13,881 nucleotides of DNA from NCBI GenBank assembly GCA_023428515.1, contig JAEYXI010000190.1:1-13881 (forward strand). Direction: 5' to 3'. Position 1 is the stretch's first letter. Each line of letters begins with the position of its first letter. Below the pieces are notes generated by a model. The model was not told where the DNA came from and made no database searches. It worked only from the letters and a program-made list of their open reading frames with translations. The position numbers and the translations under genes are program-made. Shown here one piece after another: positions 1 to 13,881 of this stretch. The stretch comes from Pseudomonadota bacterium (GTDB lineage: Bacteria > Pseudomonadota > Alphaproteobacteria > Rhizobiales > Rhizobiaceae).

Positions 1-1
1 C

Positions 2-853: not shown

Positions 854-867
854 TCGCCAGCCTCGTA

Positions 868-896
868 GAGCCTTCCGGCGTTGCGCCGGGAGGCTC
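868..896 (+). promoter_or_regulatory. Strong intercistronic hairpin between binding-protein and permease genes
   Basis: The arms GAGCCTTCCGGCG (868-880) and CGCCGGGAGGCTC (884-896) pair over 13 bp with a single G-U wobble and a TTG loop. The hairpin starts 14 bases after the binding-protein stop and ends 15 bases before the permease ATG. No T-run follows, so a full intrinsic terminator is unlikely. Hairpins here in binding-protein-dependent ABC operons commonly protect the upstream mRNA or partly stop transcription, giving an excess of binding protein; that role is inferred. Confidence 0.7.
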
Positions 897-911
897 GGCA
901 ACTGTCCCGGC

Positions 912-1946
912 ATGAGGGCCACGGCCTTGACCATCTCGTCCACCGACGGCGCCGCCGTCCCATCCCGCACGGCCAGGAGTTCGCTGGCAAGGCAGATGCT
1001 GGCGAAACCGGCAGGGTCGATCTTCGTGGTGTTCGCGCTGATCCAGATCGCCTGCATCGTCGCCGGCCTGCTCTATCCCGACGATTTCCGCTATTTGTCG
1101 CCGCAGAACCTCACAATCCTGATGAAGGCGGTTCCGGTACTCGGCTGCCTGGCGCTCGGCGCCGGCATCCTGATGATCGCCGGCGAGTTCGACCTGTCGA
1201 TTGGCTCCGTCTACACGCTGACCGCCATCGTCATGGCCGTGCAGGTTGGCGACGGAATGAGCGCCTTCCTTGCCGCGCCGCTGGCGATCCTGATCGGCGT
1301 CGCGATCGGCGTGCTGAACGGGGTGATCACGCTGCGCTTCGGCCTGCCGTCCTTCATCGTTACACTGGGCGGCCTGCTGTTCTGGCGCGGCGCGGTGCTG
1401 CTCTACAATGGCGCCGTTCAGGTCCGTTTCGACCCCGAGCCGATGTTTTCCTCGCTCTTCGCGGGAACCTTCCTGGGTCTCAACGCCGCCTTCATCTGGA
1501 TACTGCTGCTCGTCGTCGCCTTCCATCTCCTGCTGCACAATCACTGGTTCGGCAACCACGTCTTCGCGACGGGCGGCAACCGCGCGGCGGCGACCGCCAT
1601 CGGCATCAACGTCAAGCGCGTCAAGATCATCGCCTTCGCCATCGCCGGCGGCATGGCGGCCTTCGCCGGCATCCTGGCGACCTCGCGCGTCGGCAGCGTG
1701 CAGCCCGGACAGGGCACCGGCCTCGAACTCCAGGCGATCGCCGCCTGCGTCATCGGCGGTCTCTCGCTCAATGGCGGGCGCGGCTCGGTGATAGGCATCT
1801 TCCTCGGCGTGCTCCTGATCCACACGATCACCAACGTGCTGCTGCTCGTTCGCGCGCCGGGCTTCTACCTCGAAATGTTCATCGCGACGCTGATCGTCGG
1901 CGCCGCCATCCTGAACCAGCTCATCGAACGCAAGGGGACCGCATGA
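912..1946 (+). CDS. CUT2-family sugar ABC transporter permease (RbsC/FrcC-like)
   Basis: This 344-residue, strongly hydrophobic protein has about eight to ten predicted membrane segments after a polar N-terminal tail of about 35 residues. The motif 'GEFDLSIGS' near residues 91-99 and the C-terminal block 'GGLSLNGGRGSVIGIFLGVLL...' are hallmarks of branched-type (BPD_transp_2) sugar permeases such as RbsC, XylH and FrcC, and the length fits the family. It would form the homodimeric inner-membrane channel for the sugar carried by the upstream binding protein. The ATG at 912 has no good Shine-Dalgarno sequence; an internal start in the N-terminal tail is possible, for example ATG at 996. Its stop overlaps the start of the ATPase gene (ATGA, 1943-1946), which implies translational coupling. 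Confidence 0.9.
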   Translation: MRATALTISSTDGAAVPSRTARSSLARQMLAKPAGSIFVVFALIQIACIVAGLLYPDDFRYLSPQNLTILMKAVPVLGCLALGAGILMIAGEFDLSIGSVYTLTAIVMAVQVGDGMSAFLAAPLAILIGVAIGVLNGVITLRFGLPSFIVTLGGLLFWRGAVLLYNGAVQVRFDPEPMFSSLFAGTFLGLNAAFIWILLLVVAFHLLLHNHWFGNHVFATGGNRAAATAIGINVKRVKIIAFAIAGGMAAFAGILATSRVGSVQPGQGTGLELQAIAACVIGGLSLNGGRGSVIGIFLGVLLIHTITNVLLLVRAPGFYLEMFIATLIVGAAILNQLIERKGTA

Positions 1947-2683
1947 CATCCGCCACGCCTCTCCTTTCGTTGCACGATGTCAGCAAGCGCTTCGGCGCGC
2001 TGACGGCGCTCAAGGACCTGTCCTTCCATGTCGGCGAAGGCGAAGTCGTCGGCTTGCTCGGTGACAACGGCGCCGGAAAATCGACGACGGTGAACCTGAT
2101 CTCCGGAATCCACCAGCCGACATCCGGCCATATCTCGGTGGACGGCAAGCAAACGCTGTTCACCTGCCGCACGGACTCCGCCGATGCCGGCATCGAGACG
2201 ATCTATCAGAACACCGCGCTCGTGGATTCGCTCTCGATTACCCGAAACATCTTCATGGGTCGCGAACGCACCAATGGCTTCGGTTTCCTGAAGCAGGCGG
2301 AAATGCGCGAAATCGCGATGGAGGTGCTGAAGTCCGCCGTCCATATCTCCGGCATCGACTCTCCCGACAAACTGGTCGGCGAATTGTCAGGTGGCCAGAA
2401 GCAAGCGGTGGCGATCGCGCGTGCCGTGTTCTTCAAGCGCCGCGTGCTGCTGCTCGACGAGCCGACCTCGGCGCTTTCTGTGCGCGAGACCGAAGCCCTG
2501 CTCGGCCAGGTGCTGAAGCTCAAGGCCGAGAATGTGTCGAGCGTGCTCGTGACCCACAATCTCTATCACGCCTATCAGGTGTGCGACCGCTTCGTGATCA
2601 TGAGCCACGGCACCAAGGTCTTCGATGTGGCGAAGGCAGACACGACAATCGGCCAACTTACGGAATATGTGGTGCTGACATGA
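1943..2683 (+). CDS. Single-cassette sugar ABC transporter ATPase (FrcA-like)
   Basis: The 246-residue protein has all nucleotide-binding motifs in order: Walker A GDNGAGKST (40-48), Q-loop Gln89, signature LSGGQ (148-152), Walker B VLLLDEP (168-174) and H-loop His205. It energises uptake through the adjacent permease. Most CUT2 sugar importers use a fused double-cassette ATPase of about 500 residues (RbsA, XylG). This one has a single cassette, as in the rhizobial fructose transporter FrcBCA, and the gene order binding protein-permease-ATPase is also the frc order. The start is ATG 1943, preceded by AGGGGA and overlapping the permease stop; the same frame runs upstream to 881 only as an open shadow of the permease gene. 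Its stop overlaps the kduI start (ATGA, 2680-2683). Confidence 0.92.
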   Translation: MTSATPLLSLHDVSKRFGALTALKDLSFHVGEGEVVGLLGDNGAGKSTTVNLISGIHQPTSGHISVDGKQTLFTCRTDSADAGIETIYQNTALVDSLSITRNIFMGRERTNGFGFLKQAEMREIAMEVLKSAVHISGIDSPDKLVGELSGGQKQAVAIARAVFFKRRVLLLDEPTSALSVRETEALLGQVLKLKAENVSSVLVTHNLYHAYQVCDRFVIMSHGTKVFDVAKADTTIGQLTEYVVLT

Positions 2684-3552
2684 CGAATGAAGAGAAGACG
2701 GCGGGCGCTGGTGTCACCGAGGTGGACATCCGCCATGCGATCGACCCGCTGACGGCCTCAGCGATGGGGACCGACGAGTTGCGGGCGAATTTTCTCATTC
2801 CGGACCTGTTCCAGCCGGGAAAAGTGGCGCTGACCTACACGCATTACGACCGCATGATTGTCGGCGGAGCCGTGCCTCTGGAGCAGGCACTGTCGCTGGA
2901 GCCCATCAAGCAGACCGGCTCCAAAAGCTTCCTCGACCGCCGCGAGTTGATCGTCATCAATATCGGCGGGCCAGGTACGATGACGGCTGATGGCGAGGTC
3001 TTCGCGACCGGTCCGCGGGACATGGTCTATGTCGGCATGGGCACGACCAACGTGTCGTTTGCTTCGGATGATGCACACACTCCAGCGAAGTTCTATCTGC
3101 TGTCGGCGCCGGCGCATGCTACGCATCCAACAACGCTGATCCGCATCGGCGACGCCAAGCGCGTCGATCTCGGCAGCCAGCAGACATCGAACGAGCGCTC
3201 CATCTTCCAGTTCATCCACCCGGAAGGTGCGAAGACCTGCCAACTGGTTGTCGGCATGACTCAACTGGCACCGGGCTCGGTGTGGAACACCATGCCTTGC
3301 CATGTGCACGACAGGCGCATGGAGGCCTATCTCTATTTCGACCTCGCCGAGAATGCCCGGGTGTTCCACCTGATGGGCGAGCCCGACGAGACCCGTCACA
3401 TAGTTATGAAGAACGAGGAGGCGGCGGTTTCGCCGTGCTGGTCGATCCATTCAGGCGCCGGCACGTCAAGCTACGCCTTCATCTGGGCGATGGCCGGCGA
3501 CAACATCGACTACACCGACGTGGATCCTGTGTCGGTCGACATGCTGCGCTGA
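2680..3552 (+). CDS. kduI: 5-dehydro-4-deoxy-D-glucuronate isomerase (KduI)
   Basis: KduI is a cupin-fold, zinc-dependent isomerase that converts 5-keto-4-deoxyuronate, from unsaturated uronates released by pectate or oligogalacturonide lyases, to 2,5-diketo-3-deoxygluconate in the cytoplasm. The 290-residue product matches the family throughout, with blocks such as 'RRELIVINIGGPGT', 'CQLVVGMTQLAPGSVWNTMPCH', 'DETRHIVMKNEEAAVSPCWSIHSG' and 'YAFIWAMAGDN'. The zinc ligands known from E. coli KduI (His196, His198, Glu203, His245) correspond by motif to His208, His210, Glu215 and His257 here, a constant offset of 12 caused by a longer N-terminus. The ATG at 2680 overlaps the ATPase stop. A fourth-position kduI in an frc-like operon suggests the transporter imports a uronate-derived compound. 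KduI can also act on other hexuronates, so the physiological substrate is uncertain. Confidence 0.95.
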   Translation: MTNEEKTAGAGVTEVDIRHAIDPLTASAMGTDELRANFLIPDLFQPGKVALTYTHYDRMIVGGAVPLEQALSLEPIKQTGSKSFLDRRELIVINIGGPGTMTADGEVFATGPRDMVYVGMGTTNVSFASDDAHTPAKFYLLSAPAHATHPTTLIRIGDAKRVDLGSQQTSNERSIFQFIHPEGAKTCQLVVGMTQLAPGSVWNTMPCHVHDRRMEAYLYFDLAENARVFHLMGEPDETRHIVMKNEEAAVSPCWSIHSGAGTSSYAFIWAMAGDNIDYTDVDPVSVDMLR

Positions 3553-3569
3553 GTAGTGACAGGCTCCAA

Positions 3570-3812
3570 AGGCGTCCGGAGCATCTGGGCTTCTCAGATG
3601 CGGGCGCCTTGACTGGAACCGCACGTGTCATCGAGCCGACGGGGGCCGAGACGCATGTTGAATTCGACCTGGCTGGAACGCGCATAACGGCGGTCGTTGA
3701 CGGCGAATCCGCCATCGCCGTCGACGAGAAGCTGAAGACGGGTATCGACGCCGATAAAATCTATCTCTTCGATCGCGCCGATGGAAAGCGGCTGCGGTCT
3801 CGGACGGCCTGA
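3570..3812 (+). pseudogene. 3' remnant of a MalK/UgpC-type sugar ABC ATPase gene
   Basis: In one frame ending at TGA 3810-3812 the DNA reads R-P-E-H-L-G, a short spacer, then 'GTARVIEPTGAETHVEFDLAG' and finally 'IYLFDRADGKRL'. This is the C-terminal regulatory (OB/TOBE) domain order of CUT1-family ATPases (MalK, UgpC), where RPEHL precedes a 'vvEptGaEthv' strand and the chain ends near 'LFD...G.R'. Roughly the last 80 residues remain; Walker A, signature and Walker B are absent. The frame is open further upstream but there it overlaps kduI out of frame. 'GGCGTCCGGAGC' looks like GVRPEHL coding sequence that has lost about 4 bases. No start or ribosome site is present, so I read it as a dead fragment left by a deletion next to kduI. 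Confidence 0.65.
3571..3608 (+). terminator. Terminator-like hairpin downstream of kduI
   Basis: GGCGTCC (3571-3577) pairs with GGGCGCC (3602-3608) with one G-U pair. After a 3-base bulge, GCATCTG (3581-3587) pairs with CAGATGC (3595-3601) around a 7-base loop, giving 14 bp in total. It begins 18 bases after the kduI stop. Only TTGA follows rather than a T-run, so termination may be weak or Rho-dependent, or the hairpin may simply protect the mRNA 3' end. The same bases also encode part of the ABC-ATPase remnant annotated here. Confidence 0.5.
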
Positions 3813-3821
3813 TCCGTGGAT

Positions 3822-4108
3822 ATGCCCTTATCGAGTTCGCTCGGCAAGCACGGGAAGCCGCTCGCGCTCGTGGTGATGGGGGTGAGCGGCTGCGGCTATC
3901 CACATGGGCCGCAGCGCTCGCCGCCAATAGCGGCACGCTTCTGATCGAGGGAGACGCGCCGGCGCAGCCGGACAAGATCGACCGGTCCGTCGACATCATC
4001 GTGGCAAACGCCGCCCATTACCGTGCCGGCAGGCCCATGGTGAACAGGCTGACGGCAAGGACATTTATACGCGTCGTGCGTGACGGCGAATGCCATGTTC
4101 CAAGCTAA
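3822..4108 (+). pseudogene. Decayed gluconokinase gene (gntK-like), frameshifted and internally deleted
   Basis: ATG 3822 opens with 'KPLALVVMGVSGCG', the start of a gluconokinase P-loop (normally GVSGxGKST), but the frame then leaves the family and stops at 3942-3944. One frame over, the homology resumes at 'STWAAALAANSGTLLIEGDA', matching the family's 'KST...ALA...G...IEGDALHP' segment, so about one base is missing inside the P-loop. After 'PAQPDK' the sequence jumps to 'IDRSVDIIVANA', which resembles the end of gluconokinases, and stops at TAA 4106-4108. The middle of the roughly 170-residue enzyme, some 100 residues, is therefore missing. It starts 9 bases after the ATPase remnant, as if both once shared an operon for sugar-acid uptake and phosphorylation. 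The N-terminal match is good; the C-terminal match is weaker. Confidence 0.5.
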
Positions 4109-4114
4109 GGAACA
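4096..4114. terminator. Short dyad at the end of the aminotransferase gene
   Basis: TGTTCC (4096-4101) and GGAACA (4109-4114) form a perfect 6-bp stem with a 7-base loop, 18 bases beyond the aminotransferase stop codon on the minus strand. Neither strand has a convincing T-run after the stem, so this is only a weak candidate for ending minus-strand transcription. Confidence 0.25.
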
Positions 4115-4131
4115 AAATACTCAGAACGCGA

Positions 4132-5454
4132 CTACGCCGAATCCAAGCAACTGGCGAAACGATCAATCACGTCCTCGGCATCGGCAAGCGATAGGCAAAG
4201 CGGCGGACACATCCGGATGACGTTCCGGTAGGGACCGGATCGGCTGGCGACGAGGCCTTTGTAGCGCATCTGTTCGAACACGGCCAAGGCCGCTTCGGGT
4301 GCTGGCTCCTTCGTGGCCCGGTCCTTCACCAGTTCTACCGCGAGCATCAGGCCGCGTCCCCGGACATCGCCGACGAGTGGCGATTTTTCTCGAAGCCCTT
4401 CGAGTCCAGCCTTGAGCGCCCCGCCGACAACCCTGGCGTTTTCCTGCAGGCGTTCGTCGCGGATGGCCTTCAGCACCGCGCGTCCGGCGGTGCAGGCAAC
4501 TGGGTTGGCGCCGTATGTATGGAACAGGAACTTGTGCGACATGGCCTCGGCGACGTCGCGTTTCGCGATCACCGCCCCGAGCGGGATGCCGTTGCCGATG
4601 CCCTTGGCGGCGACGACGATGTCCGGCACGACGCCGTGCGACTCGAAGGACCAGAAGGCGTCGCCGGTCCTGCCGACACCCGCCTGCACCTCGTCGATGA
4701 TGAGCAGGCCGCCAGCCTTGCGAACCCGTTCGGCCGCGCCTGCGATGTAGCCGTCAGGGATGGGGACGATGCCGCCATATCCCTGCACCGGCTCGACTAT
4801 CATGCCGGCGATGGTACCGCTGGTGGAGCTGTCGATCGCTGCCTGGACTTCGGCGAGGTAGGGCGCAACGCCTTCGCCGTGGATGCCGCGGTATTGGTTG
4901 GGCTCGGCCACGAAAGCCACGCCGCCGAGCTGCAGTACGTTGTGCCGGAAACCCGCAATGCCGGTGACCGACTGCGCGCCGAACGTCGCGCCGTGATAGC
5001 TCGAACGAAGGGCCAGCATGTCGGTGTTGCCGGTGAACGTGCGGGCCATCAGCAATGCGAGGTCGATAGCTTCCGCGCCGCTGTTGGTGAAATGCACGAC
5101 CCAGTCATGGCCGGCGGGCATGGTCCCGGCGAGTTCCTCGGCATATTGCGCCGGCACCGGATGGTAGAACATGGTGGTGCAATGGGTCAGGTCTGCGAGT
5201 TGGGCGGTCGCCGCCTTGACCACCAGCGGATGTGCATGGCCGACAGAAATGCAGAGGTTCATGCCAAGCAGGTCGATGTATTTGTTGCCCTTCTCGTCCC
5301 ACAGGTACTGACCTTTTCCCCGCTTGAAGATCAACGGCTCCTTGAAAGGCACGAATTTGCGCTGCGACGCCGAGTAGAAATTCTCGCGCCGCGACACGAT
5401 CGCTTCCGTCGACCAGTCGACTTCGAGTTCCGGCAGGGTGTCGAGGGCATCCAT
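4132..5454 (-). CDS. Class III PLP-dependent aminotransferase, AGXT2-like
   Basis: The 440-residue product belongs to fold-type I, class III aminotransferases and is closest in pattern to AGXT2 (alanine-glyoxylate / 3-aminoisobutyrate-pyruvate transaminase): 'YLWDEKGNKYIDLLGMNLCISVGHAHP', 'HCTTMFYHPVPAQYAEELA', 'FTNSGAEAIDLALLMAR', 'YHGATFG', 'IVEPVQGYGG', 'IIDEVQAGVGRTG', 'DIVVAAKGIGNGIPLGAV'. Counting from the chosen start, the PLP-binding Lys is 284, the Asp contacting the PLP ring nitrogen is 254 and the phosphate-binding SGAEA lies at 125-129. A longer form starting at GTG 5499 is open, but ATG 5454 has a perfect AGGAGG six bases upstream and is preferred. It lies downstream of the LysR gene on the same strand. 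Near sarcosine and dimethylglycine dehydrogenases it may transaminate glyoxylate or an amino acid made from the methylated substrate; its exact donor is unknown. Confidence 0.88.
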   Translation of the reverse strand: MDALDTLPELEVDWSTEAIVSRRENFYSASQRKFVPFKEPLIFKRGKGQYLWDEKGNKYIDLLGMNLCISVGHAHPLVVKAATAQLADLTHCTTMFYHPVPAQYAEELAGTMPAGHDWVVHFTNSGAEAIDLALLMARTFTGNTDMLALRSSYHGATFGAQSVTGIAGFRHNVLQLGGVAFVAEPNQYRGIHGEGVAPYLAEVQAAIDSSTSGTIAGMIVEPVQGYGGIVPIPDGYIAGAAERVRKAGGLLIIDEVQAGVGRTGDAFWSFESHGVVPDIVVAAKGIGNGIPLGAVIAKRDVAEAMSHKFLFHTYGANPVACTAGRAVLKAIRDERLQENARVVGGALKAGLEGLREKSPLVGDVRGRGLMLAVELVKDRATKEPAPEAALAVFEQMRYKGLVASRSGPYRNVIRMCPPLCLSLADAEDVIDRFASCLDSA

Positions 5455-5460
5455 GTTCCG

Positions 5461-5466
5461 CCTCCT
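5461..5466 (-). promoter_or_regulatory. Consensus Shine-Dalgarno that fixes the aminotransferase start
   Basis: On the minus strand AGGAGG lies six bases before ATG 5454. It falls inside the 5' extension of the longer frame that begins at GTG 5499, which argues that the extension is untranslated leader. Confidence 0.85.
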
Positions 5467-5507
5467 GGACGATTCCAAAAAATCGGCCGGATTGAACACG
5501 GGAAAGC

Positions 5508-5525
5508 TTGCCGACGCATCGGCAA
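5508..5525 (-). promoter_or_regulatory. Hairpin between the LysR and aminotransferase genes
   Basis: TTGCCGA (5508-5514) and TCGGCAA (5519-5525) form a perfect 7-bp stem with a 4-base loop, starting 9 bases after the LysR stop on the minus strand and 53 bases before the aminotransferase start. On the minus strand only GCTTTCCC follows, so it may attenuate or process the transcript rather than end it. It could give the two genes different expression levels. Confidence 0.4.
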
Positions 5526-5534
5526 AGTCCGTTA

Positions 5535-6557
5535 TCAGGATAATTGATGCTCGCGATTAGCGTCCGCGTCATATCGATCGAGGGCGTATTGGTCGGGGGG
5601 CAGCGCAGGCAGCCGCGTCCTGATCGCCTCCACAAGAACTTCTGCCGTGCGTGAGGCAAAGGCTTCCGGCAGGTCGCCAAGTTCCCGCTCCCGGGCAACA
5701 AGCGTGATGTTGCGCGACAGGCCGGTGAAAGGAAGTGGGTGGACGTCGATCTCCATGCCTTCGGCGAGGCCGTCGATCAGCAGCGTCGGCGTGAGTATGG
5801 CAAAACCCATGCCCGCCGCCACCGGCGCGGTGACCACGCTGGAGCGGTCGCCTTCCATGGCTCGTGGAATCTCGATGCGCAGCCGGCTGAGGTGCTGGTC
5901 GACGCGCAGGCCGACCGGCGTTTCCCTGGAGAAACGGACAAAGGCCAGCTTGCGCGACAGTCTTGCGATATCGCGGACATCCCCGTCAAAACCCTTTGGC
6001 GTCACCAGCATGAATTTTTCGGTGAGAATGGGATGACGGATCAGCCCCTCGATTTCGAAGAGTTCACCGGAGGTGACCGCTAGATCGGCGCGACGGGCGC
6101 GCAGCAGCGCCACATGGTCTGTAGCAAGGCCGGCGAAAAGGCTGAGTTCGGGAATACCAAAATCCTTGCGGGCGAGCACGGAAAGCGCCGGCGCTAGCGT
6201 CGTCGCTATGGACGCCAACAACGCGACCCTTAGAAGCGGCAAGGGCGCGGCGTTCACCCGCCGGGCCTCTGTGCGCAAACCTTCCACTTCCGAAAGGATC
6301 GATATGGCGCGCCGGTGCAGCGCGATGCCCGCTTTCGTTAGTTCGATGGGCCGGATATTGCGGTCGATCAGGCTGACGGCAAGCGCGGTTTCAAGGTTCT
6401 TCAGGTGTTGGGACGCAGCCGACTGGGTCATGCCGAGCATCTGTGCGGCCTGCGTCACATGCCGTGTCTCGACGATCGCAACGAACACCTCGATGGACCG
6501 GAAAAGATTGAAATCGAAACTGCCGCTCTTCACGCCGCTTACACTGCTCCGGACCAT
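5535..6557 (-). CDS. LysR-family transcriptional regulator
   Basis: The 340-residue protein has a LysR N-terminal winged helix-turn-helix ('LFRSIEVFVAIVETRHVTQAAQMLGMTQSAASQHLKNLE', helix-turn-helix about residues 34-53) followed by a linker helix and a periplasmic-binding-like effector domain ('LLRVALLASIATTLAPAL', 'DLAVTSGELF', 'VVTAPVAAGMGFAILTPTLL'). ATG 6557 is chosen because the domain begins about 14 residues later. A longer form from ATG 6620 is open but its extra 21 residues match nothing and would cross the divergent promoter; the ribosome site (AGGA about 11 bases upstream) is only fair. Its position, divergent from the dehydrogenase operon and upstream of the aminotransferase, is classic for a LysR activator of both units, with a methylated amine or a breakdown product as likely inducer. 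The effector cannot be deduced from the sequence. Confidence 0.9.
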   Translation of the reverse strand: MVRSSVSGVKSGSFDFNLFRSIEVFVAIVETRHVTQAAQMLGMTQSAASQHLKNLETALAVSLIDRNIRPIELTKAGIALHRRAISILSEVEGLRTEARRVNAAPLPLLRVALLASIATTLAPALSVLARKDFGIPELSLFAGLATDHVALLRARRADLAVTSGELFEIEGLIRHPILTEKFMLVTPKGFDGDVRDIARLSRKLAFVRFSRETPVGLRVDQHLSRLRIEIPRAMEGDRSSVVTAPVAAGMGFAILTPTLLIDGLAEGMEIDVHPLPFTGLSRNITLVARERELGDLPEAFASRTAEVLVEAIRTRLPALPPDQYALDRYDADANREHQLS

Positions 6558-6652
6558 GCCATAAGTTTTCCTAATGTTACACGAAACAGGTTGAACGCAA
6601 GCCGTTGGCGGGAAAAACATGCGCCGTCCACCCAGCAGAGAGTTCTCCCCAG
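6558..6652. promoter_or_regulatory. Divergent promoter region between LysR gene and dehydrogenase operon
   Basis: These 95 bases are clearly more A+T-rich than the flanking genes and separate the two divergent start codons. A rightward candidate promoter is TTGAAC (6591-6596) with a 17-base spacer to AAAACA (6614-6619), a poor -10. TTTTCC (6565-6570) and GGAAAA (6611-6616) are inverted about 40 bases apart. No individual promoter is certain. Confidence 0.5.
6568..6585. promoter_or_regulatory. Candidate LysR operator (imperfect dyad)
   Basis: TTC, 12 bases, then GAA form an 18-bp imperfect dyad (TTC.T........A.GAA) containing a T-N11-A core, the minimal LysR-type recognition pattern. It sits 10 bases upstream of the LysR start, where an autoregulatory and activating site is expected. 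T-N11-A motifs are short and common by chance. Confidence 0.3.
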
Positions 6653-9103
6653 GTGAATGACAGCGCGCGTATCGTGATTATCGGCGGAGGCGTCATCGGC
6701 CTCGGCGTCGCCTATCATCTGGCGGAGCTCGGCGTTTCCGACGTGGTGCTGCTGGAGCGAAACCAGTTGACCAGCGGCACGTCGTGGCACGCTGCCGGCA
6801 TCGTCGGCCCGCTGCGCGCGAGCCTCAACCTGACGCGACTGGCGCAGTACGCGACCGAGCTTTTTCCACGGCTGGAGGAATTGACGGGCCAATCCTCCGG
6901 ATATCGCCAGACCGGCGGCGTCTGGCTGGCGCGCAATGCGGACCGGATGGAGGAACTCAAGCGTATCGCGCATATGGGCGACGTGAGCGGGCTCACCGTC
7001 GAGATGATCGACGGTTCCACCACCGCGGGACGCGTGCAGGGCCTCGACCCGGAAGGACTGGCCGGCGCGCTCTGGGTGGCCGAGGACGGGCAGGCCAACC
7101 CGGTCGACATCTGCGCGGCCTATGCGAAGCACGCGCGCGCCGCCGGCATTCGCATCGTCGAGGGAGCGAAAGTTACCGGCATCGAGAAGCGGGACGGACG
7201 GGTGGCCGGCGTGCAACTCGCCTCGGGCCAGACAATCCGCTGCGAGATCATCGTCAACTGTGCCGGCGCCTGGGCGCGCGAGGTCGGCGCACTAGCCGGC
7301 GTGCCGGTGCCGCTTCAGGCCGTCGAGCACATGTATGTCGTGACCGAGCCGATCGCAGGATTGCAGGACCCCTTCCCGATCGTGCGCCACCTGGATCGAG
7401 GGATCTACGCTAAGGGCGACTCCGGAAAACTCGTGCTCGGCGGTTTCGAGCCGGACGCAAAACTCTTCGACGCAGGCGGGCCGGCGGGCGACCGGCCGTT
7501 CCTCGAACTGCCGGACGACTGGGAGCAGTTCGAGCCCTTCATGACGGCCGGGCTCCAGCTCCTGCCCGTGCTCGGCGAGGCAGGCATCCGCCATTTCATG
7601 AACGGTCCGGAGAGTTTTACGCCGGACACGCGGCCGCTGATGGGTGAGTCGCCGTATCTACGCGGCTTCTTGGTCGCCGCAGGCTTCAATTCCACCGGCA
7701 TGATGTCGTCGGCGGGCGCGGGCCGCGCGACGGCCGAATGGATCGTCGACGGCGAGCCGGGCCTGGATCTTTGGGCGCTCGATATTGCGCGCTTCGACCG
7801 GGCCTCCGGAGCAAAATCCTATGTCGGGGCGAGGATGCGGGAATCGGTCGCCGACCTCTTCCGCATGCACTGGCCGTATAAGCAGGCCGTTGCTGGACGA
7901 GGCGCGCGCCGATCGGCCTTCCATCGCACCTTTGCAGACAAAGGCGCAGTGTTCGGCGCGCCGACCGGATGGGAACGGCCGCTGTGGTATGACGCCTCGA
8001 ACACGGGCAGCACGGACTATTCGTTCGGCGCACAGTCTTGGTGGCCAGCGGCACAGGCCGAAGCGCAAGCGATGGCGCGTGGCGTCGGCCTCTTCGAGCT
8101 TTCGCCGTTCACCAAGCTGGATGTCGCCGGGCGCGACGCGGTCGGACTGATGCAGCGCCTCTGCACCAGCGATGTCGACGTCGCGGAAGGCCGCGCCGTG
8201 TACACGCAGATGCTCAATCGGCGCGGCGGCATCGAGGCCGACGTGACGGTGACGCGGATCGGCGTGCGCGCGTTCCGCGTCGTGTCCGGCGCGGCGACGC
8301 GGCAGAAGGATCGCGCGTGGATCGAGCGCCACGCCCACGATCTCGGCCTCGACGCGACGGTCTGCGACCTGACCTCCGCCGAGGCGGTGCTCGCCGTGAT
8401 GGGGCCGCGCTCGCGAGCGCTGCGTCAGGAACTAACAGATTCCGATCTTTCGGATGCGGCGTTTCCGTTCTCCACATCGCGCCGCATCGACGTCGGCATG
8501 GCGAATGTGCGCGCCACGCGCATCAGCTTCGTCGGCGAGTTGGGCTTCGAGCTCTACGTGCCGGTCGAGCAGGCGGAGAGCCTTCTGGAGACGCTCCTCG
8601 AGGCGGGCCGCGCCCACGACCTCGCCTTGTGCGGGCACTATGCGCTGGACGGCTGCCGGCACGAGAAGGGTTTTCGTCATTGGGGACACGACATCGGCCC
8701 CAAGGAGACGCCGCTGGAAGCAGGGCTCGCTTTCACCGTGGCATGGAAAAAGGACGATTTTGTCGGTCGCGACGCACTCCAAAAACAAAAGACGGAAGGC
8801 GTCGGGCGGCGGCTCATGCACTTTGCGGTGCAGGGCGCTAATCCGCTGCTGCTGCATGACGAACCGGTATATCGCGACGGCCGGCTTGCCGGGCTGACAA
8901 CCTCCGGCGGTTTCGGACCGCGCACCGGATTGAGCCTGTGCCTCGCCTATGTCGGATGCAAACCCGGCGAGACGAAGCTCGACCTTCTGCAATCGAGCTA
9001 CGAGATCGCGGTCGCGGGCGATCGGTTCACGTTACTACCACTGGAAAAGGCGCCTTATGACGCCGCTGGAACCCGCATGCGGGGCGGAGAGGAAAGACCA
9101 TGA
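6653..9103 (+). CDS. Sarcosine dehydrogenase-like FAD/GcvT-domain protein
   Basis: The 816-residue protein is an N-terminal FAD oxidoreductase (about 1-365), an FAO_M linker (about 365-425) and a C-terminal aminomethyltransferase (GcvT) domain (about 430-800). Such enzymes oxidise an N-methyl group and pass the formaldehyde unit to tetrahydrofolate. The FAD fingerprint IVIIGGGVIG is near the N-terminus. 'LTSGTSWHAAG' contains His46, the residue that carries covalent FAD in mammalian homologues. His226 in 'EHMYVVTEP' matches the conserved active-site His. Motifs 'GPESFTPDTRPLMGESPYLRG', 'GFNSTGMM', 'SFVGELGFELYVP' and 'EKGFRHWGHDIGPKETPLEAGLAF' follow sarcosine dehydrogenase rather than dimethylglycine dehydrogenase. 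I prefer GTG 6653, with GAGAG about 10 bases upstream; the frame extends to TTG 6605, but those 16 residues precede the FAD fingerprint and lie in the promoter. Its stop overlaps the next start (ATGA). Another secondary or tertiary N-methyl amino acid is possible as substrate. Confidence 0.85.
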   Translation: MNDSARIVIIGGGVIGLGVAYHLAELGVSDVVLLERNQLTSGTSWHAAGIVGPLRASLNLTRLAQYATELFPRLEELTGQSSGYRQTGGVWLARNADRMEELKRIAHMGDVSGLTVEMIDGSTTAGRVQGLDPEGLAGALWVAEDGQANPVDICAAYAKHARAAGIRIVEGAKVTGIEKRDGRVAGVQLASGQTIRCEIIVNCAGAWAREVGALAGVPVPLQAVEHMYVVTEPIAGLQDPFPIVRHLDRGIYAKGDSGKLVLGGFEPDAKLFDAGGPAGDRPFLELPDDWEQFEPFMTAGLQLLPVLGEAGIRHFMNGPESFTPDTRPLMGESPYLRGFLVAAGFNSTGMMSSAGAGRATAEWIVDGEPGLDLWALDIARFDRASGAKSYVGARMRESVADLFRMHWPYKQAVAGRGARRSAFHRTFADKGAVFGAPTGWERPLWYDASNTGSTDYSFGAQSWWPAAQAEAQAMARGVGLFELSPFTKLDVAGRDAVGLMQRLCTSDVDVAEGRAVYTQMLNRRGGIEADVTVTRIGVRAFRVVSGAATRQKDRAWIERHAHDLGLDATVCDLTSAEAVLAVMGPRSRALRQELTDSDLSDAAFPFSTSRRIDVGMANVRATRISFVGELGFELYVPVEQAESLLETLLEAGRAHDLALCGHYALDGCRHEKGFRHWGHDIGPKETPLEAGLAFTVAWKKDDFVGRDALQKQKTEGVGRRLMHFAVQGANPLLLHDEPVYRDGRLAGLTTSGGFGPRTGLSLCLAYVGCKPGETKLDLLQSSYEIAVAGDRFTLLPLEKAPYDAAGTRMRGGEERP

Positions 9104-11568
9104 GACAGCATGCCCGCGTGGTGGTGATCGGAGGCGGCGCGATGGGCGTGTCGCTGCTCTACCACCTGGCCAAGCGCGGCTGGAGCGACGTGCTGCTGGT
9201 GGAAAGGCAGGAGTTGACCGCCGGCTCCACCTGGCACGCGGCCGGGCTCTGCACCCATTTCGCACACAATGCGACCATCATGCAGATGCGGGCGCATTCG
9301 GTTCGCCTCTATCGTGAGGTGCTGACGGCGGAGACCGGACTGCCGACGGGCTTCCATGCCAGCGGCGCGCTGCGGGTGACCCGGTCCCGGGACCGCATCG
9401 ATGAGTTCCGCCATGTACAGGGGCTGGGACGCTTCGTCGGCTACGACTTCCACATCCTGTCGCCGGCCGAGTTGAAGGAAATCTATCCTCTGTGCGAGAC
9501 GGATGGGTTGCTCGGCGCGATCTACGAGCCGAATGACGGCCATGTCGACCCGACGCTGGCGACCAACGCCATGGCCGCTGGCGCGCGCTCGCGCGGAGCC
9601 GAGATCGTACGCCAGAATCCGGTACTGGGAATCGAGCGCAAGCCGTCCGGCGAATGGTTGGTTCGCACCGAAAAAGGCGACGTGACGGCCGAGCACGTGG
9701 TCAACGCGGCCGGCACATGGTGCCGCGAGGTCGGTGCGATGATGGGGATCGACCTGCCGGTCGTGCCGATGCTGCACCAGTATGTCGTGACCGACACCGT
9801 GCCTGAGATTGCCGGCCGCATCGCCGCCGGCGAGCGCGAACTTCCGATCATCCGCGATCCAGAGGAGAGCTGGTATCTGCGCCAGGAGCGCGATGGCTAT
9901 ATCGTCGGTCCCTACGAGAAGGCGGCGCACACCTGGGCGGTCGACGGGGTGCCGCCGGAATTCGGCATGGAACTGCTTCCGCCGGAGCTCGATCGCGTCG
10001 AAGACATCATCGCATTGGCGATGGAGCGGGTTCCCGCGCTCGCCAATGCCGGCATCAAGACGGTCGTCAACGGCCCGATCACCTTCACGCCCGACGCCAA
10101 CCCGCTGGTCGGACCTGCGTTCGGCCTGCACAATGCCTGGCTGCTGACCGGCTCCAGCATGGGCGTGATGGAAGGCGGCGGCGCCGGCAGCTTCCTCGCC
10201 GACTGGATCGTCGACGGCGCGCCGCCGAGCGATGCGCTCGCGCTCGATCCGCGCCGCTTCGGAAATTTCGCCGACCGCGACTACCGCGTCGACAAGGCGG
10301 TCGAATGCTTTGGGCTGCAGTTCGGCGTCCACTATCCCTTCGAGGAGCGGGAAGCCGGTCGGCCGCGTCGCACGACGCCTGCGCTGGAAACCCAGAAAAG
10401 CCAGGGCGCGGTGCTCGGCGCCGCCTATGGCTGGGAACGGCCGAACTGGTTTGCGGCTGGAGCCGCCGATGTCCATGCGCCGCTGACGTTCCGCAAGCCC
10501 GGCTGGTTCGAAGCTGTTCGCGAGGAATGCCTGGCGGTTCGCGACAGTGTCGGCTGCATCGACCTCTCGGCCTTCACGAAGTTCGAGGTCAGCGGTTCCG
10601 GAGCGACCGCGTTCATGGAACAGCTCGGGGCGAACCGGCCGCCGCAGCGGCAGGGCCGCATCGGCCTTATCCACGCGCTGACCCCGGCAGGCGGCGTGGC
10701 CTCGGAATTCACGGTCACGCGCATAGGCGAGGAGGGATACTACCTCACCAGCGCCGCCGTCGCGGAGCGTCACGACGAGGACCTGCTGCGGTCCCGCGCC
10801 ACCGGCCTGGAGGGCATCCGGATCGAGAACGTGACGGAAAGACGCGGCGTGCTCGGCGTCATGGGACCGATGGCGCGCGACGTGCTTCGGCAGATCAGCG
10901 AGGCGGACTTCTCAGACGCTACATTCCCATGGCTCTCGGCGCAGGTCATCCGCGTCGCCGGCATCAGGGCAGCTGCGCTGCGGGTATCCTACGCGGGCGA
11001 ACTTGGTTGGGAGCTGCACGTATCGCTGGCGCAGTTTGGCAAACTTTACAATGCCGTCATTGAAGCGGGTCGCCGCTACGACATCCGGCCTTTCGGCATC
11101 TACGCCCTGAATTCGATGCGCCTGGAAAAGGGCTATCGCGGCTGGGGTGCGGATCTCACTACCGAACGCACGCCGCTGGAAGCAGGACTGGCTCCACTGG
11201 TGAAGACGGACGGAAGAGCGTTCGTCGGCCGTGATGCCATGCTTGCACGGATCGGCGAGAGTGCCTGGCGCATGGCGTTGCTCGAAATCGAAGGTGACGG
11301 CGAGCACGCGCCGTTTTATGCGCACACCGTCTTCCAGTCCGGCCAGCCGGTGGGGATCGTCACTTCGGGCGCCTACGGCTTCCGCACGAATAAGACTCTC
11401 GCCCTGGCCTACATGCGGCCCGGCGTGTCTTCCGAAAATCTCTCCGTTTCCCTGATCGGCAAGGAATTTCCAGCACGGGAGCTGGAAGCCGCGCCTTATG
11501 ACGCCGCCAACCGGCGGCTGCGCGGTCTCGCCGAAGAAACGCCCGCAATGGAGCGACGCCATGGCTGA
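9100..11568 (+). CDS. Dimethylglycine dehydrogenase-like FAD/GcvT-domain protein
   Basis: This 822-residue paralogue has the same architecture: FAD oxidoreductase (about 1-370), FAO_M linker, and GcvT domain (about 430-800) for transfer of the released one-carbon unit to tetrahydrofolate. 'ELTAGSTWHAAGL' matches mammalian dimethylglycine dehydrogenase closely, with His46 as the covalent FAD site, as do 'NDGHVDP', 'VNAAGTWCREVGAMMG', 'HQYVVTDT' (His226), 'YLRQERDGYIVGPYE', 'VVNGPITFTPDANPLVGP', 'SYAGELGWELHV' and 'LRLEKGYRGWGADL'. The likely reaction is dimethylglycine to sarcosine, with electrons leaving to an electron-transfer flavoprotein that is not encoded in this window. ATG 9100 has GGAGAGGAAAG just upstream and overlaps the previous stop by 4 bases. 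The 3' end overlaps the methyltransferase gene by 8 bases, so all three are translationally coupled. A related N,N-dimethyl amino acid such as dimethylproline cannot be excluded as substrate. Confidence 0.88.
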   Translation: MRQHARVVVIGGGAMGVSLLYHLAKRGWSDVLLVERQELTAGSTWHAAGLCTHFAHNATIMQMRAHSVRLYREVLTAETGLPTGFHASGALRVTRSRDRIDEFRHVQGLGRFVGYDFHILSPAELKEIYPLCETDGLLGAIYEPNDGHVDPTLATNAMAAGARSRGAEIVRQNPVLGIERKPSGEWLVRTEKGDVTAEHVVNAAGTWCREVGAMMGIDLPVVPMLHQYVVTDTVPEIAGRIAAGERELPIIRDPEESWYLRQERDGYIVGPYEKAAHTWAVDGVPPEFGMELLPPELDRVEDIIALAMERVPALANAGIKTVVNGPITFTPDANPLVGPAFGLHNAWLLTGSSMGVMEGGGAGSFLADWIVDGAPPSDALALDPRRFGNFADRDYRVDKAVECFGLQFGVHYPFEEREAGRPRRTTPALETQKSQGAVLGAAYGWERPNWFAAGAADVHAPLTFRKPGWFEAVREECLAVRDSVGCIDLSAFTKFEVSGSGATAFMEQLGANRPPQRQGRIGLIHALTPAGGVASEFTVTRIGEEGYYLTSAAVAERHDEDLLRSRATGLEGIRIENVTERRGVLGVMGPMARDVLRQISEADFSDATFPWLSAQVIRVAGIRAAALRVSYAGELGWELHVSLAQFGKLYNAVIEAGRRYDIRPFGIYALNSMRLEKGYRGWGADLTTERTPLEAGLAPLVKTDGRAFVGRDAMLARIGESAWRMALLEIEGDGEHAPFYAHTVFQSGQPVGIVTSGAYGFRTNKTLALAYMRPGVSSENLSVSLIGKEFPARELEAAPYDAANRRLRGLAEETPAMERRHG

Positions 11569-13126
11569 GGAAACCGAGACCCTCGTGGCAAGCGAAGCCT
11601 CCGCGCCGCGGTCCCGAGGGCGAGCCGCGAGGCTGATCCAGCGTGGAGCGGCGCCTCCACGCCGGCCCTATATCAACCGCAGGATCGGGACCTTCAACAT
11701 CCTCGACGAGGAAGGACTGTCGCTGATCGAGGCGAACGCCGATAGCCTGCTCCAGGAAATAGGCATGGAGTTTCATGACGATCCCGAGATTCTCGACATT
11801 TTTCGCGCGGCGGGTGCCGACGTGCAGAACACGCGCGTGCGCTTCGAGCCCGGCATGTGCCGCAGCATCATCCGTGCCACCGCACCCTCACAGTTCAAGC
11901 AGCATGCCCGCAACCCCGCCAACACGGTGATGATCGGCGGCGACAACACGGTGCTGTGCCCGGCATGGGGGCCGCCCTTCGTGCACGATCTCGACCGGGG
12001 TCGGCGCTATGCCACGATCGCCGACTTCCGCGACCTCGTGAAGATCCACCAGATGATCCCGCATCTGCACCACTCGGGCGGTGTCGTCTGCGAGCCGGTC
12101 GACCTGCCGGCGAACAAGCGTCACCTCGACATGCTTTACACCCACATACGCTATTCCGACCGTGCCTTCATGGGCGCGTTCATCGGCGAGATGCGGGCGC
12201 AGGATGCCGTGGTCATGGCGAAGATCGTGTTCGGCGAGGAATTCGTGGCGAACAACGCCGTGCTCTACAACGTGTCCAACACGAACGCGCCACTGGTGCT
12301 CGACGCCAACATGTCCGGTTCGCTCAAGGTCTACGCCCGAAACAACCAGCCGGTCGCCTGCACGCCCTGGACGCTCGCCGGCGCGATGAGCCCCTGCACG
12401 GTCGCCGGGACGCTGGCCCAGGTGCTGGCCGAGGCGCTGGCGTGCCTTTCGCTCGTGCAGCTCATCAATCCCGGCGCGCCCTGCCTGATGGGAAGCTTCG
12501 CCAGCACCATCTCGATGCAGAGCGGCGCGCCCACCTTCGGTACGCCAGAGGCCGGCAAGATGGTGCTGGCCTGCGGACAGCTCGCGCGCCGTCTCGGCGT
12601 TCCGCTGCATACGGTGGGGTCTCTCTCGGCGTCCAAGGTGCCGGATGCGCAGGCCGAGCAGGAGGGCACCTGGGGCCTGCTGATGTCGATGTTCGCGGGC
12701 GCCAACGTCATCAACCACGCTACCGGCTGGCTGGAAGGCGGGCTTGTCACCGGCTTCGAGAAGACCATCATCGATGCCGATCTGTGCGGCAAGGTCGCCA
12801 GCCTGTTCGAGGGTATCGACCTTTCGCTCAACGCGCAGGCGATGGAAGCGATCGCCGAAGTCGGACCAGGCTCGCATTTCCTCGGCAGCGCGCACACGCA
12901 GTCCAACTTCCTGTCGGCCTTTTACCGCTCATCCATCAGCGACAACAATTCGTTCGAACAGTGGGCTTCGGAAGGCAGCCTGGATGCCGCCCAACGCGCA
13001 AATCGCCAGTGGAAGCACCTGCTGGAAAACTACGCCGACCCGCTGCTCGACCCGGCGGTCGACGAGGCGGTCCAGGCTTTCATCGCGAAGCGCAAGGAGA
13101 GCATGCCGGATCAGGATTATTTCTGA
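11561..13126 (+). CDS. MttB/COG5598-family methyltransferase lacking pyrrolysine
   Basis: The 521-residue protein belongs to the trimethylamine methyltransferase (MttB) superfamily, whose members demethylate tri- or quaternary amines and pass the methyl group to a corrinoid protein. Supporting blocks include 'GTFNILDEEGLSLIEANADSLLQEIGMEF', 'NPANTVMIGGDNTVLCPAWGPPFVHDL', 'VLDANMSGSLKVYARNNQPV', 'PGAPCLMGSFASTISMQSGAPTFGTPEAGKM' and 'SHFLGSAHTQSNF', with a polar N-terminal tail of about 35 residues. There is no in-frame TAG, so it is a non-pyrrolysine member, like MtgB (glycine betaine), MtpB (proline betaine) or MtcB (carnitine). ATG 11561 (GGAG seven bases upstream) is preferred over the longer open frame from 11498, whose extra codons lie inside the upstream gene. 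No corrinoid protein or methylcobamide:tetrahydrofolate methyltransferase gene is in the window. Given the two dehydrogenases and ProX, glycine betaine is the best guess at substrate; its real reaction in aerobic alphaproteobacteria is largely untested. Confidence 0.82.
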   Translation: MAEETETLVASEASAPRSRGRAARLIQRGAAPPRRPYINRRIGTFNILDEEGLSLIEANADSLLQEIGMEFHDDPEILDIFRAAGADVQNTRVRFEPGMCRSIIRATAPSQFKQHARNPANTVMIGGDNTVLCPAWGPPFVHDLDRGRRYATIADFRDLVKIHQMIPHLHHSGGVVCEPVDLPANKRHLDMLYTHIRYSDRAFMGAFIGEMRAQDAVVMAKIVFGEEFVANNAVLYNVSNTNAPLVLDANMSGSLKVYARNNQPVACTPWTLAGAMSPCTVAGTLAQVLAEALACLSLVQLINPGAPCLMGSFASTISMQSGAPTFGTPEAGKMVLACGQLARRLGVPLHTVGSLSASKVPDAQAEQEGTWGLLMSMFAGANVINHATGWLEGGLVTGFEKTIIDADLCGKVASLFEGIDLSLNAQAMEAIAEVGPGSHFLGSAHTQSNFLSAFYRSSISDNNSFEQWASEGSLDAAQRANRQWKHLLENYADPLLDPAVDEAVQAFIAKRKESMPDQDYF

Positions 13127-13132
13127 GGACGG

Positions 13133-13170
13133 CGATGCGGTTACAACCCCTAATGCAAGGCATCGTTTTT
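13133..13170 (+). terminator. Possible terminator after the methyltransferase gene
   Basis: CGATGC (13133-13138) and GCATCG (13160-13165) pair over 6 bp around a 21-base loop and are followed directly by TTTTT (13166-13170). A smaller alternative, ATGC-AAG-GCAT, lies inside. The T-run argues for a terminator and the long loop against a strong one, so read-through to the binding-protein gene is possible. Confidence 0.4.
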
Positions 13171-13229
13171 CCTTATGTACCGAAATGGCGGCTTGATTGA
13201 CGGCGCATTCGGCTAACGTCATGCCTAGA

Positions 13230-13243
13230 CTGAACGAATTCAG
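13230..13243. promoter_or_regulatory. Small perfect dyad upstream of the ProX-like gene
   Basis: CTGAA and TTCAG surround a 4-base centre, 29 bases before the ATG at 13273. It could be an operator half-site pair or a leader hairpin. The 146-base gap also has TTGACG (13197-13202) as a possible -35, but I see no matching -10 at a normal spacing. Confidence 0.25.
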
Positions 13244-13272
13244 CGGATAACGACAAACTGGGGAACTTTGTC

Positions 13273-13881
13273 ATGAAGCACTATCTCGCCGGGACCGCGC
13301 TGGGCGCACTGATGCTTGCGCAGGCTTCGGCCGCGTTCACTGCCGACGTCGCCATGCCCGACCCGAACTATGCCACGGCCACGGCCGTCATGAACGTCAT
13401 CAAGGCCGCCGCCGAACAGGAGCTCGGCCTGGAAGTCTCCACCGTGACGACCACTGCCGTCCCGGTGATCTGGGAAGCCATGGCCCGCAACAAGGGCGAG
13501 ATCGACATCTGGCCGGACGTCTGGGTGCCGAACCAGCAGGGTCTGGTCGACAACTATGTCAAGGGCGCGGGCACGGTGAAACTCGCGGAGAACGGCTACG
13601 AGGCCAAGCAGGGCTACTGTGTCACCAAGGCGACCGCCGACGAGCACGGCATCAAGGATGTCATCGACCTGTCCAATCCCGAAAAAGCCGCGCTGTTCGA
13701 CACTAACGGCGACGGCAAGGGCGAGATCTGGATCGGCGCCTCCGGCTGGCAGTCGACCAACATCGAGACGGTCAGGGCGCGCGATTACGGCTTTGCCGAC
13801 TTCTTCGAACTGCAGACGACCGAGGAAGCCGTCGCGACCGCTTCGCTCGACCGGGCGGTCAAGGCCGGCAAGCCCTGGATC
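13273..13881 (+). CDS. ProX/OpuAC-type glycine betaine ABC transporter binding protein (3' end cut off)
   Basis: The reading frame starts at ATG 13273 (GGGGA nine to ten bases upstream) and stays open to the window edge, so 203 residues of about 310-340 are visible. Residues 1-20 form a signal peptide (MKHYLAGTALGALMLAQASA) with an A-S-A cleavage site. The rest matches the quaternary-amine-binding OpuAC domain: 'TTTAVPVIWEAMARNKGEIDIWPDVWVPNQQ' and 'NPEKAALFDTNGDGKGEIWIGASGWQ', the latter close to E. coli ProX 'DPKIAKLFDTNGDGKADL'. Tryptophans 67, 80, 84 and 159 are candidates for the aromatic cage that holds the trimethylammonium group. It is a periplasmic protein feeding an ABC importer whose other genes should lie just past the right edge. 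Its own leader and a preceding hairpin suggest separate or additional transcription. Choline, carnitine or proline betaine are alternative ligands. Confidence 0.88.
   Translation, partial: MKHYLAGTALGALMLAQASAAFTADVAMPDPNYATATAVMNVIKAAAEQELGLEVSTVTTTAVPVIWEAMARNKGEIDIWPDVWVPNQQGLVDNYVKGAGTVKLAENGYEAKQGYCVTKATADEHGIKDVIDLSNPEKAALFDTNGDGKGEIWIGASGWQSTNIETVRARDYGFADFFELQTTEEAVATASLDRAVKAGKPWI

Follow-up and report, generated by a model that had tools for sequence, protein, structure and literature searches.

A conserved MttB-family gene cassette that probably serves a quaternary amine other than glycine betaine

A 13,881-nucleotide stretch of DNA from a Rhizobiaceae bacterium (contig JAEYXI010000190.1 of assembly GCA_023428515.1, positions 1 to 13,881; hereafter the window) carries a gene for an MttB-family methyltransferase next to two genes for flavin adenine dinucleotide (FAD) oxidoreductases fused to folate-type GcvT domains. 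The initial annotation had read these genes as an aerobic system for the demethylation of glycine betaine. Our comparison with related genomes, proteins, and structures suggests that they belong to a cassette that would break down a quaternary amine probably other than glycine betaine, from which three methyl groups would be removed, followed by the nitrogen through transamination; we give this reading a probability of roughly 0.57. The chemistry of the cassette is known, and its MttB clade is distinct from the characterised MtgBs. The sequence comparisons described below show that the cassette is real and conserved, and it is probably functional.

The cassette is larger than initially noted, extending to the left of the fusion genes over 4132–6620. 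This part contains, on the reverse strand, a gene for a class III (PF00202) pyridoxal 5'-phosphate (PLP) aminotransferase of 455 residues (4132–5499; Pfam score, 305 bits) and a gene for a LysR-type regulator (5535–6620; Pfam HTH_1 and LysR_substrate), which is divergent from the demethylation genes and whose true start is probably internal. On the forward strand follow fusion 1 (6653–9103, with a GTG start at 6653 and a possible TTG start at 6605), the dimethylglycine-dehydrogenase-like fusion 2 (9100–11568), and the MttB gene (11561–13126, with an ATG start at 11561, or a start at 11549). Both fusions display the Pfam domains DAO, FAO_M, GCV_T, and GCV_T_C. Fusions 1 and 2 overlap by 4 nucleotides (9100–9103), and the MttB start sits within the 3' end of fusion 2. 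Because the reading frames overlap end to start, the three genes are truly coupled, and the overlaps together with the Pfam assignments bear out the initial annotation on this point. A gene for an OpuAC/ProX-type substrate-binding protein (13273–13881, forward strand; Pfam OpuAC, 102 bits), cut by the window end after its first 203 residues, does lie after the MttB gene as had been noted, but the gap of 146 nucleotides from the MttB stop to its start means that it is merely downstream and not translationally coupled.

The window MttB belongs to the MttB superfamily (PF06253, 685 bits against a cut-off of 25, profile positions 1–500 of 500) but not to the pyrrolysine-containing MttBs, since it scores 252 bits against a cut-off of 525 with TIGR02369 and is encoded by a single open frame without TAG. 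Its closest relatives, among the best 120 of 8000 scored matches, are from Mesorhizobium and related Hyphomicrobiales, the best at 91% identity, which suggests a Mesorhizobium-like host. A structure model with a mean pLDDT (predicted local distance difference test) of 80 matches the Sinorhizobium meliloti protein 4YYC (template modelling (TM) scores of 0.85/0.92; 58–59% identity) and Desulfitobacterium hafniense MtgB (DhMtgB; TM scores of 0.84/0.92; 39% identity); this modelled likeness confirms the fold alone. A tree built from 117 MttB rows groups the 26 rows of the window type into a single clade, with a support of 100 in the Shimodaira–Hasegawa-like approximate likelihood ratio test (SH-aLRT). 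A separate 62-row MtgB-type clade (95) includes S. meliloti 4YYC, and 25 of its 62 rows are MttBs with MtgC within 6 kb. The window-type clade was found again (100/100, and in all 200 bootstrap trees) in a 53-row tree rooted on distant MttBs, which was built without locus L024 and 39 of the 62 MtgB-type rows. In that tree a Roseibium row (L068) joins the window-type clade (86/85), and the MtgB-type rows form a single group in 6% of the bootstrap trees. Judging from these sequences, the window-type clade, whose stem is long (0.71), may stand beside the array of MtgB-type branches or may bud from it. MttBs of both groups occur together in seven of eight relatives' genomes (G001–G007; the other MttBs of the eighth, G008, were not fetched). 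No proven substrate was found for the window-type clade, so no clade-mate with an unrelated proven substrate was found either, and our literature searches, covering titles and abstract openings and, for some searches, part of the matches, returned no study of this clade.

The predicted substrate pocket also differs between the two types. Docking, as described in PMC6855144, led to the proposal of Tyr94, Asn199, Arg309, and His345 of DhMtgB as the glycine betaine contacts. All four of these predicted contacts are invariant in the MtgB-type rows (62/62). The window-type rows retain the equivalents of Asn199 and His345 (26/26), whereas the position of Arg309 is occupied by His in all 26 and that of Tyr94 by Trp in 22, Phe in three, and Tyr in one. 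The window MttB therefore retains two of the four contacts and has the other two changed: the Trp codon at 11966–11968 (forward strand; residue 136 counted from the ATG at 11561, alignment number 157) takes the place of Tyr94, and the clade-specific His codon at 12608–12610 (forward strand; residue 350, alignment number 371) that of Arg309. The same pattern is seen in the database relatives (again the best 120 of 8000 scored), which display His at the Arg309 position in 120/120 and, at the Tyr94 position, Trp in 119 and Phe in one. In addition, the residue beside His345 is Asn in all 120 of these relatives and Leu (61/62) or Met (1/62) in the MtgB-type rows, and 20 further positions separate the two types, each at least 88% conserved within its group. 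Arg309 is retained in 21 of the 29 remaining rows of the tree, DhMtgB included.

GTDB genomes were scanned for MttB and the best 80 loci were kept, although more exist. The MttBs of 26 loci group with that of the window: the window itself, L001, L003–L024, L092 (the same as L002), and L101 (the same as L055). Their hosts are Hyphomicrobiales, roseobacters, other alphaproteobacteria, and gammaproteobacteria. Partners were counted as tblastn matches of at least 40% identity that start no more than 9 kb from the MttB gene. Fusion 1 was present at 25 of the 26 loci, fusion 2 at 23, the aminotransferase at 22, LysR at 16, and a ProX match at five, the window counted. The recurrence of the gene set at 26 loci across these lineages argues that it is not a chance grouping. 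The gene order varies by lineage, MttB being first in roseobacters and last in Mesorhizobium, and the linkage has therefore been maintained despite rearrangement. An aminotransferase match is absent at L005, L010, L023, and L024. The contigs of L010 and L023 measure 3.6 and 5.8 kb, at L005 the contig breaks off within fusion 2, and at L024 the MttB gene starts 179 bases from a contig end; the aminotransferase gene may thus be out of sight at these four loci, yet the visible side of L005 and L024 is without it. The same cassette, with a betaine-type ATP-binding cassette (ABC) transporter, is carried by the annotated plasmid pB1-1-8 of Mesorhizobium sp. B1-1-8, where the genes are annotated as aspartate aminotransferase family, LysR, two FAD-dependent oxidoreductases, and trimethylamine methyltransferase family, the last matching the window MttB at 90% identity over 94% of the query. 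The full transporter, with ATPase and permease beside the binding protein, was seen at L002 and in pB1-1-8; the L002 binding protein gave no match against the PDB at 1e-10. What the initial annotation observed thus holds: a bacterium from an aerobic lineage has an MttB-family enzyme alongside two oxidase fusions with folate domains, and in relatives a betaine-type ABC transporter follows downstream.

The aminotransferase is the component that a route ending in glycine would not evidently need. Its best PDB match is ethanolamine-phosphate phospho-lyase (278 bits), which prompted us to consider a phospholyase role. The enzyme shares the fold family of the class III PLP enzymes with this lyase, but the window protein has Arg, not Lys, in its C-terminal motif (NVIRMCPPL). 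The Arg is found in 22/22 cassette aminotransferase rows aligned, of which two pairs are copies and from which L006 and L022 fell out, and a Lys occupies this position (NVLKxxPP) in the phospholyases 6tor and 5g4i and in four long fusion proteins. The Arg in place of Lys speaks against placing the window enzyme among the class III phospholyases and lowered our estimate of such a role. Paralogues that we take to be gamma-aminobutyric acid (GABA)-aminotransferase-like also possess the Arg. Aminotransferase matches near the MtgB-type loci have at most 33% identity and are therefore other enzymes.

The assignment of a dimethylglycine dehydrogenase (DMGDH)-like protein in the initial annotation fits fusion 2, whose best PDB likeness is DMGDH 4p9s (666 bits over residues 3–820). 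Fusion 1, which the initial annotation had tentatively labelled sarcosine-dehydrogenase-like, is also nearest to DMGDH and dimethylglycine oxidase (DMGO) in the PDB (424 bits). When aligned by eye, fusion 2 has His, His, Tyr, and an acid residue at the places of DMGO His69, His225, Tyr259, and the folate acid residue, which are presumably the flavin-link and active-site His, the active-site Tyr, and the folate-binding acid residue; the last is Glu in fusion 2 and in DMGDH but Asp in DMGO. The domains, whose order is that of DMGDH/DMGO, and the aligned residues mark fusion 2 as a putative demethylating oxidase of the DMGDH/DMGO type. The cassette fusions differ from these enzymes in forming cassette-only clades of their own, with 23 rows for fusion 1 and 22 for fusion 2, in FastTree trees. 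DAO-GcvT fusions are strongly expanded in the genomes G001–G008 (8–17 matches per genome at E ≤ 1e-60, some of them pieces of one gene), and several adjoin other MttB paralogues.

No MtgC, MtgD, RamA, or DUF1638 match was found by tblastn in any fetched stretch of the 26 window-type loci. The eight relatives' genomes contain 4–14 MttBs each, as against one or two PF02607 proteins. Since many MttBs are accompanied by only one or two corrinoid proteins per genome, a shared MtgC is the simplest partner for the window MttB. A stand-alone corrinoid protein (open frame below 400 residues) was present in 22 of 25 genomes with the cassette (the eight and 17 further ones); G021 has a long MetH-like frame only, and G018 and G020 have no PF02607 frame. 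In the Mesorhizobium genomes G001 and G002, MtgC, MtgD, methylenetetrahydrofolate reductase (MTHFR), DUF1638, and RamA lie together at one locus (L091 and L100), and the window-type cassette is situated away from it. Each of these two genomes has a single PF02607 protein and no MetH-sized frame, and methionine synthesis may therefore depend on a split MtgCDE enzyme.

The initial annotation had also proposed that the MttB takes the place of the usual first-step enzymes, betaine-homocysteine methyltransferase (BHMT) and the Rieske pair GbcAB, which it reported as absent. The absence is true for the 13.9-kb window, where no Rieske gene was seen in the open reading frame list or by Pfam, but is uninformative on the genome, as near relatives carry PF02574 proteins and an mtg locus elsewhere. 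We accordingly dropped the missing BHMT as a meaningful sign, and a replacement by MttB is disfavoured by the separate MtgB-type gene that the relatives carry beside a corrinoid protein. G001 has two PF02574 proteins and G002 has one. The first of the G001 genes is part of the mtg locus; the second, homocysteine-methyltransferase-like, is flanked by two DAO-GcvT fusions (L140; G001:C166:62216-69166); by coordinates a similar arrangement also occurs in G003, G005, G006, G007, and G008, and is perhaps another demethylation cassette. The GbcA-superfamily Rieske oxygenases of G001 and G002 amount to seven genes (nine PF00848 places), and no true GbcA was found among the four scanned, the best scoring 249 bits against a cut-off of 670 for NF058607. 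With no true GbcA among these four of the seven genes, glycine betaine is probably handled by MtgBCD in these relatives.

Aerobic demethylation of glycine betaine by an MttB-type enzyme is already published. Ruegeria pomeroyi is reported to be unable to grow on glycine betaine without MtgC and MtgD, with MtgB proposed as the substrate module, the methyl group reaching folate through the corrinoid protein, and the same core also making methionine (Mausz et al., PNAS 2025, PMC12478193). The same paper describes mtgBCDE as clustered in S. meliloti and notes that a marine genome can have as many as seven pfam06253 genes, suggesting that the multiple MttBs serve diverse methylated compounds. The general idea of the initial annotation thus stands, with precedent, but its application to glycine betaine here is not supported. 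Over 503 residues, 4YYC does not differ from the S. meliloti MttB of the mtg locus, an enzyme encoded beside a cobalamin-binding protein, DUF1638, MTHFR, methyltetrahydrofolate:cobalamin methyltransferase, an ASKHA protein, and bmt. Like the R. pomeroyi MtgBCD(E) and S. meliloti mtg systems, the window has a PF06253 enzyme in an aerobe, and its relatives have the same core genes. Unlike them, the window MttB lies in its own clade, has a changed predicted pocket and no adjoining corrinoid gene, and is accompanied by two fusions and an aminotransferase. With D. hafniense MtgB (2QNE, 9YCE) it has in common the fold and two of the four predicted glycine betaine contacts, differing by Arg309 to His and Tyr94 to Trp and at an identity of only 39%. 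The Eubacterium limosum enzymes MtpB, MtcB, MtyB, and MthB provide a precedent for several MttB paralogues in one genome acting on different quaternary amines (PMC12478193, PMC8604678, PMC12155760), with paralogues described as sharing MtgC (PMC12478193); E. limosum, compared here by description and not by sequence, differs in being an anaerobe whose MthB has its own MthC. An mttB knock-out of M. alhagi, which may or may not concern a window-type MttB, is reported to have no salt phenotype (PMC4302635).

Characterised MttBs pass the methyl group to a corrinoid protein (PMC12155760, PMC6855144). In the pathway that we propose, a quaternary amine would be taken up via a ProU-type transporter, and the window MttB would transfer one methyl group from R-N+(CH3)3 to the shared corrinoid protein MtgC, its presumed partner, from which MtgD would move the methyl group to folate. 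The two FAD-GcvT fusions would then oxidise the second and third methyl groups to methylene-folate, in an order that we can only suggest, and the class III aminotransferase would transaminate the resulting primary amine, with the cassette presumably under the control of LysR. A route ending in glycine needs no such aminotransferase, whereas an amine without an alpha-carboxylate would; for this reason we favour as candidate substrates betaines that would be demethylated to such an amine, for example beta-alanine betaine and gamma-butyrobetaine. A broader proposal, which we put forward tentatively and regard as somewhat doubtful, is that a widespread aerobic MttB clade starts the oxygenase-free removal of all three N-methyl groups from a non-alpha quaternary amine via one shared methionine-synthase/MtgC core, followed by deamination. 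If true, Proteobacteria would connect numerous MttB-fusion cassettes, each specific to a substrate, to a single cobalamin hub (as many as 14 MttBs were counted in one genome).

Several points weigh against a substrate other than glycine betaine. The 53-row tree does not settle how the window-type clade, the roseobacter rows, and the MtgB-type branches follow one another, and the clade may derive from MtgB-type enzymes; since the rooted tree lets it bud from the MtgB-type rows, we lowered our estimate for another substrate and raised that for glycine betaine. The pocket residues are docking predictions, and a His instead of Arg could still bind a carboxylate. The aminotransferase could be a lyase, given its best PDB match, and is transcribed divergently from the demethylation genes in the window. 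The DMGDH-like fusion is also compatible with glycine betaine, as is the ProX-type transporter, which is of the glycine betaine type by the pB1-1-8 annotation. Finally, the MthC that serves E. limosum MthB (PMC12155760) indicates that the sharing of a corrinoid protein is not universal. These points meet in a rival explanation in which the window MttB acts on glycine betaine as a second methyltransferase, the fusions run from dimethylglycine to glycine, and the aminotransferase serves another purpose. The nearest characterised relatives, S. meliloti 4YYC and DhMtgB, are indeed of the MtgB type, and two R. pomeroyi MttBs, which may or may not be of the window type, are reported to have risen on N-osmolytes (PMC12478193). 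This explanation nevertheless has to accommodate a long-stemmed clade of its own, the loss of the predicted carboxylate-binding Arg to His and of Tyr94 to Trp, a separate MtgB-type gene in the relatives, and a conserved aminotransferase without an evident role. It is the clade, the predicted pocket, and the aminotransferase that led us to lower glycine betaine as the substrate, and we consider it unlikely.

Two other explanations appear less probable still. Choline or phosphocholine might be converted to (phospho)ethanolamine and then transaminated or eliminated by the aminotransferase homologue. E. limosum MthB is described as demethylating phosphocholine (PMC12155760), and the PDB match of the aminotransferase, an APH-type kinase downstream of the cassette at L007 and L012, and a BetI-type TetR (or homologue) at L018 and L017 point in the same direction. 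The kinase and the regulator, however, each occur at only two of the 26 loci and neither is in the window, the aminotransferase is without the phospholyase Lys, and the fusions resemble enzymes for N-methylglycines, making this explanation improbable; a specific model of a kinase acting with a lyase on phosphocholine was likewise lowered by the kinase count. Slightly less probable again is a sulfonate or aromatic betaine as the substrate, or a methyl acceptor other than MtgC. In its favour, a sulfotransferase-like gene adjoins the cassette at seven of the 26 loci, a PF02574 methyltransferase lies near it in L020, and three of the 25 genomes showed no stand-alone corrinoid protein; on the other hand, these three genomes are metagenome bins, and no sulfonate-cleaving gene was seen among the scanned part of the neighbours.

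A quaternary amine other than glycine betaine as the substrate would have consequences for the annotation of this family. One MttB clade can now be described by a defined gene set, a residue of diagnostic value (His where DhMtgB has Arg309), and a few candidate substrates. If the reading is true, surveys could split likely glycine betaine enzymes (Arg type) from enzymes for other osmolytes (His type), a split beyond the reach of plain PF06253 counts, and the idea of a shared cobalamin core would be extended to soil rhizobia.

Further genes were observed around the cassette. The sulfotransferase-like gene (PF19798 in L018, homologues by tblastn) lies at varied positions beside it in L005, L007, L012, L014, L016, L018, and L020, and gave no tblastn match at the other 19 of the 26 loci. 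Rieske oxygenases, GbcA-superfamily or other, are near the cassette in L002 (L169, adjoining the aminotransferase) and L009 (6251–7390), and an arginase-family gene and a HalD-like gene adjoin the aminotransferase in L004 (1833–3638). In the window itself, a separate operon outside the cassette (2–3552, forward strand) encodes a sugar-type ABC transporter and KduI: a sugar-type binding protein (weakly rhizopine-family-like, 133 bits against a cut-off of 420), a permease, an ATPase, and the KduI isomerase. Between the KduI and aminotransferase genes, 3552–3809 (forward strand) encodes what is left of the C-terminus of an ABC-transporter ATPase (TOBE_2, 30 bits), apparently from a truncated gene.

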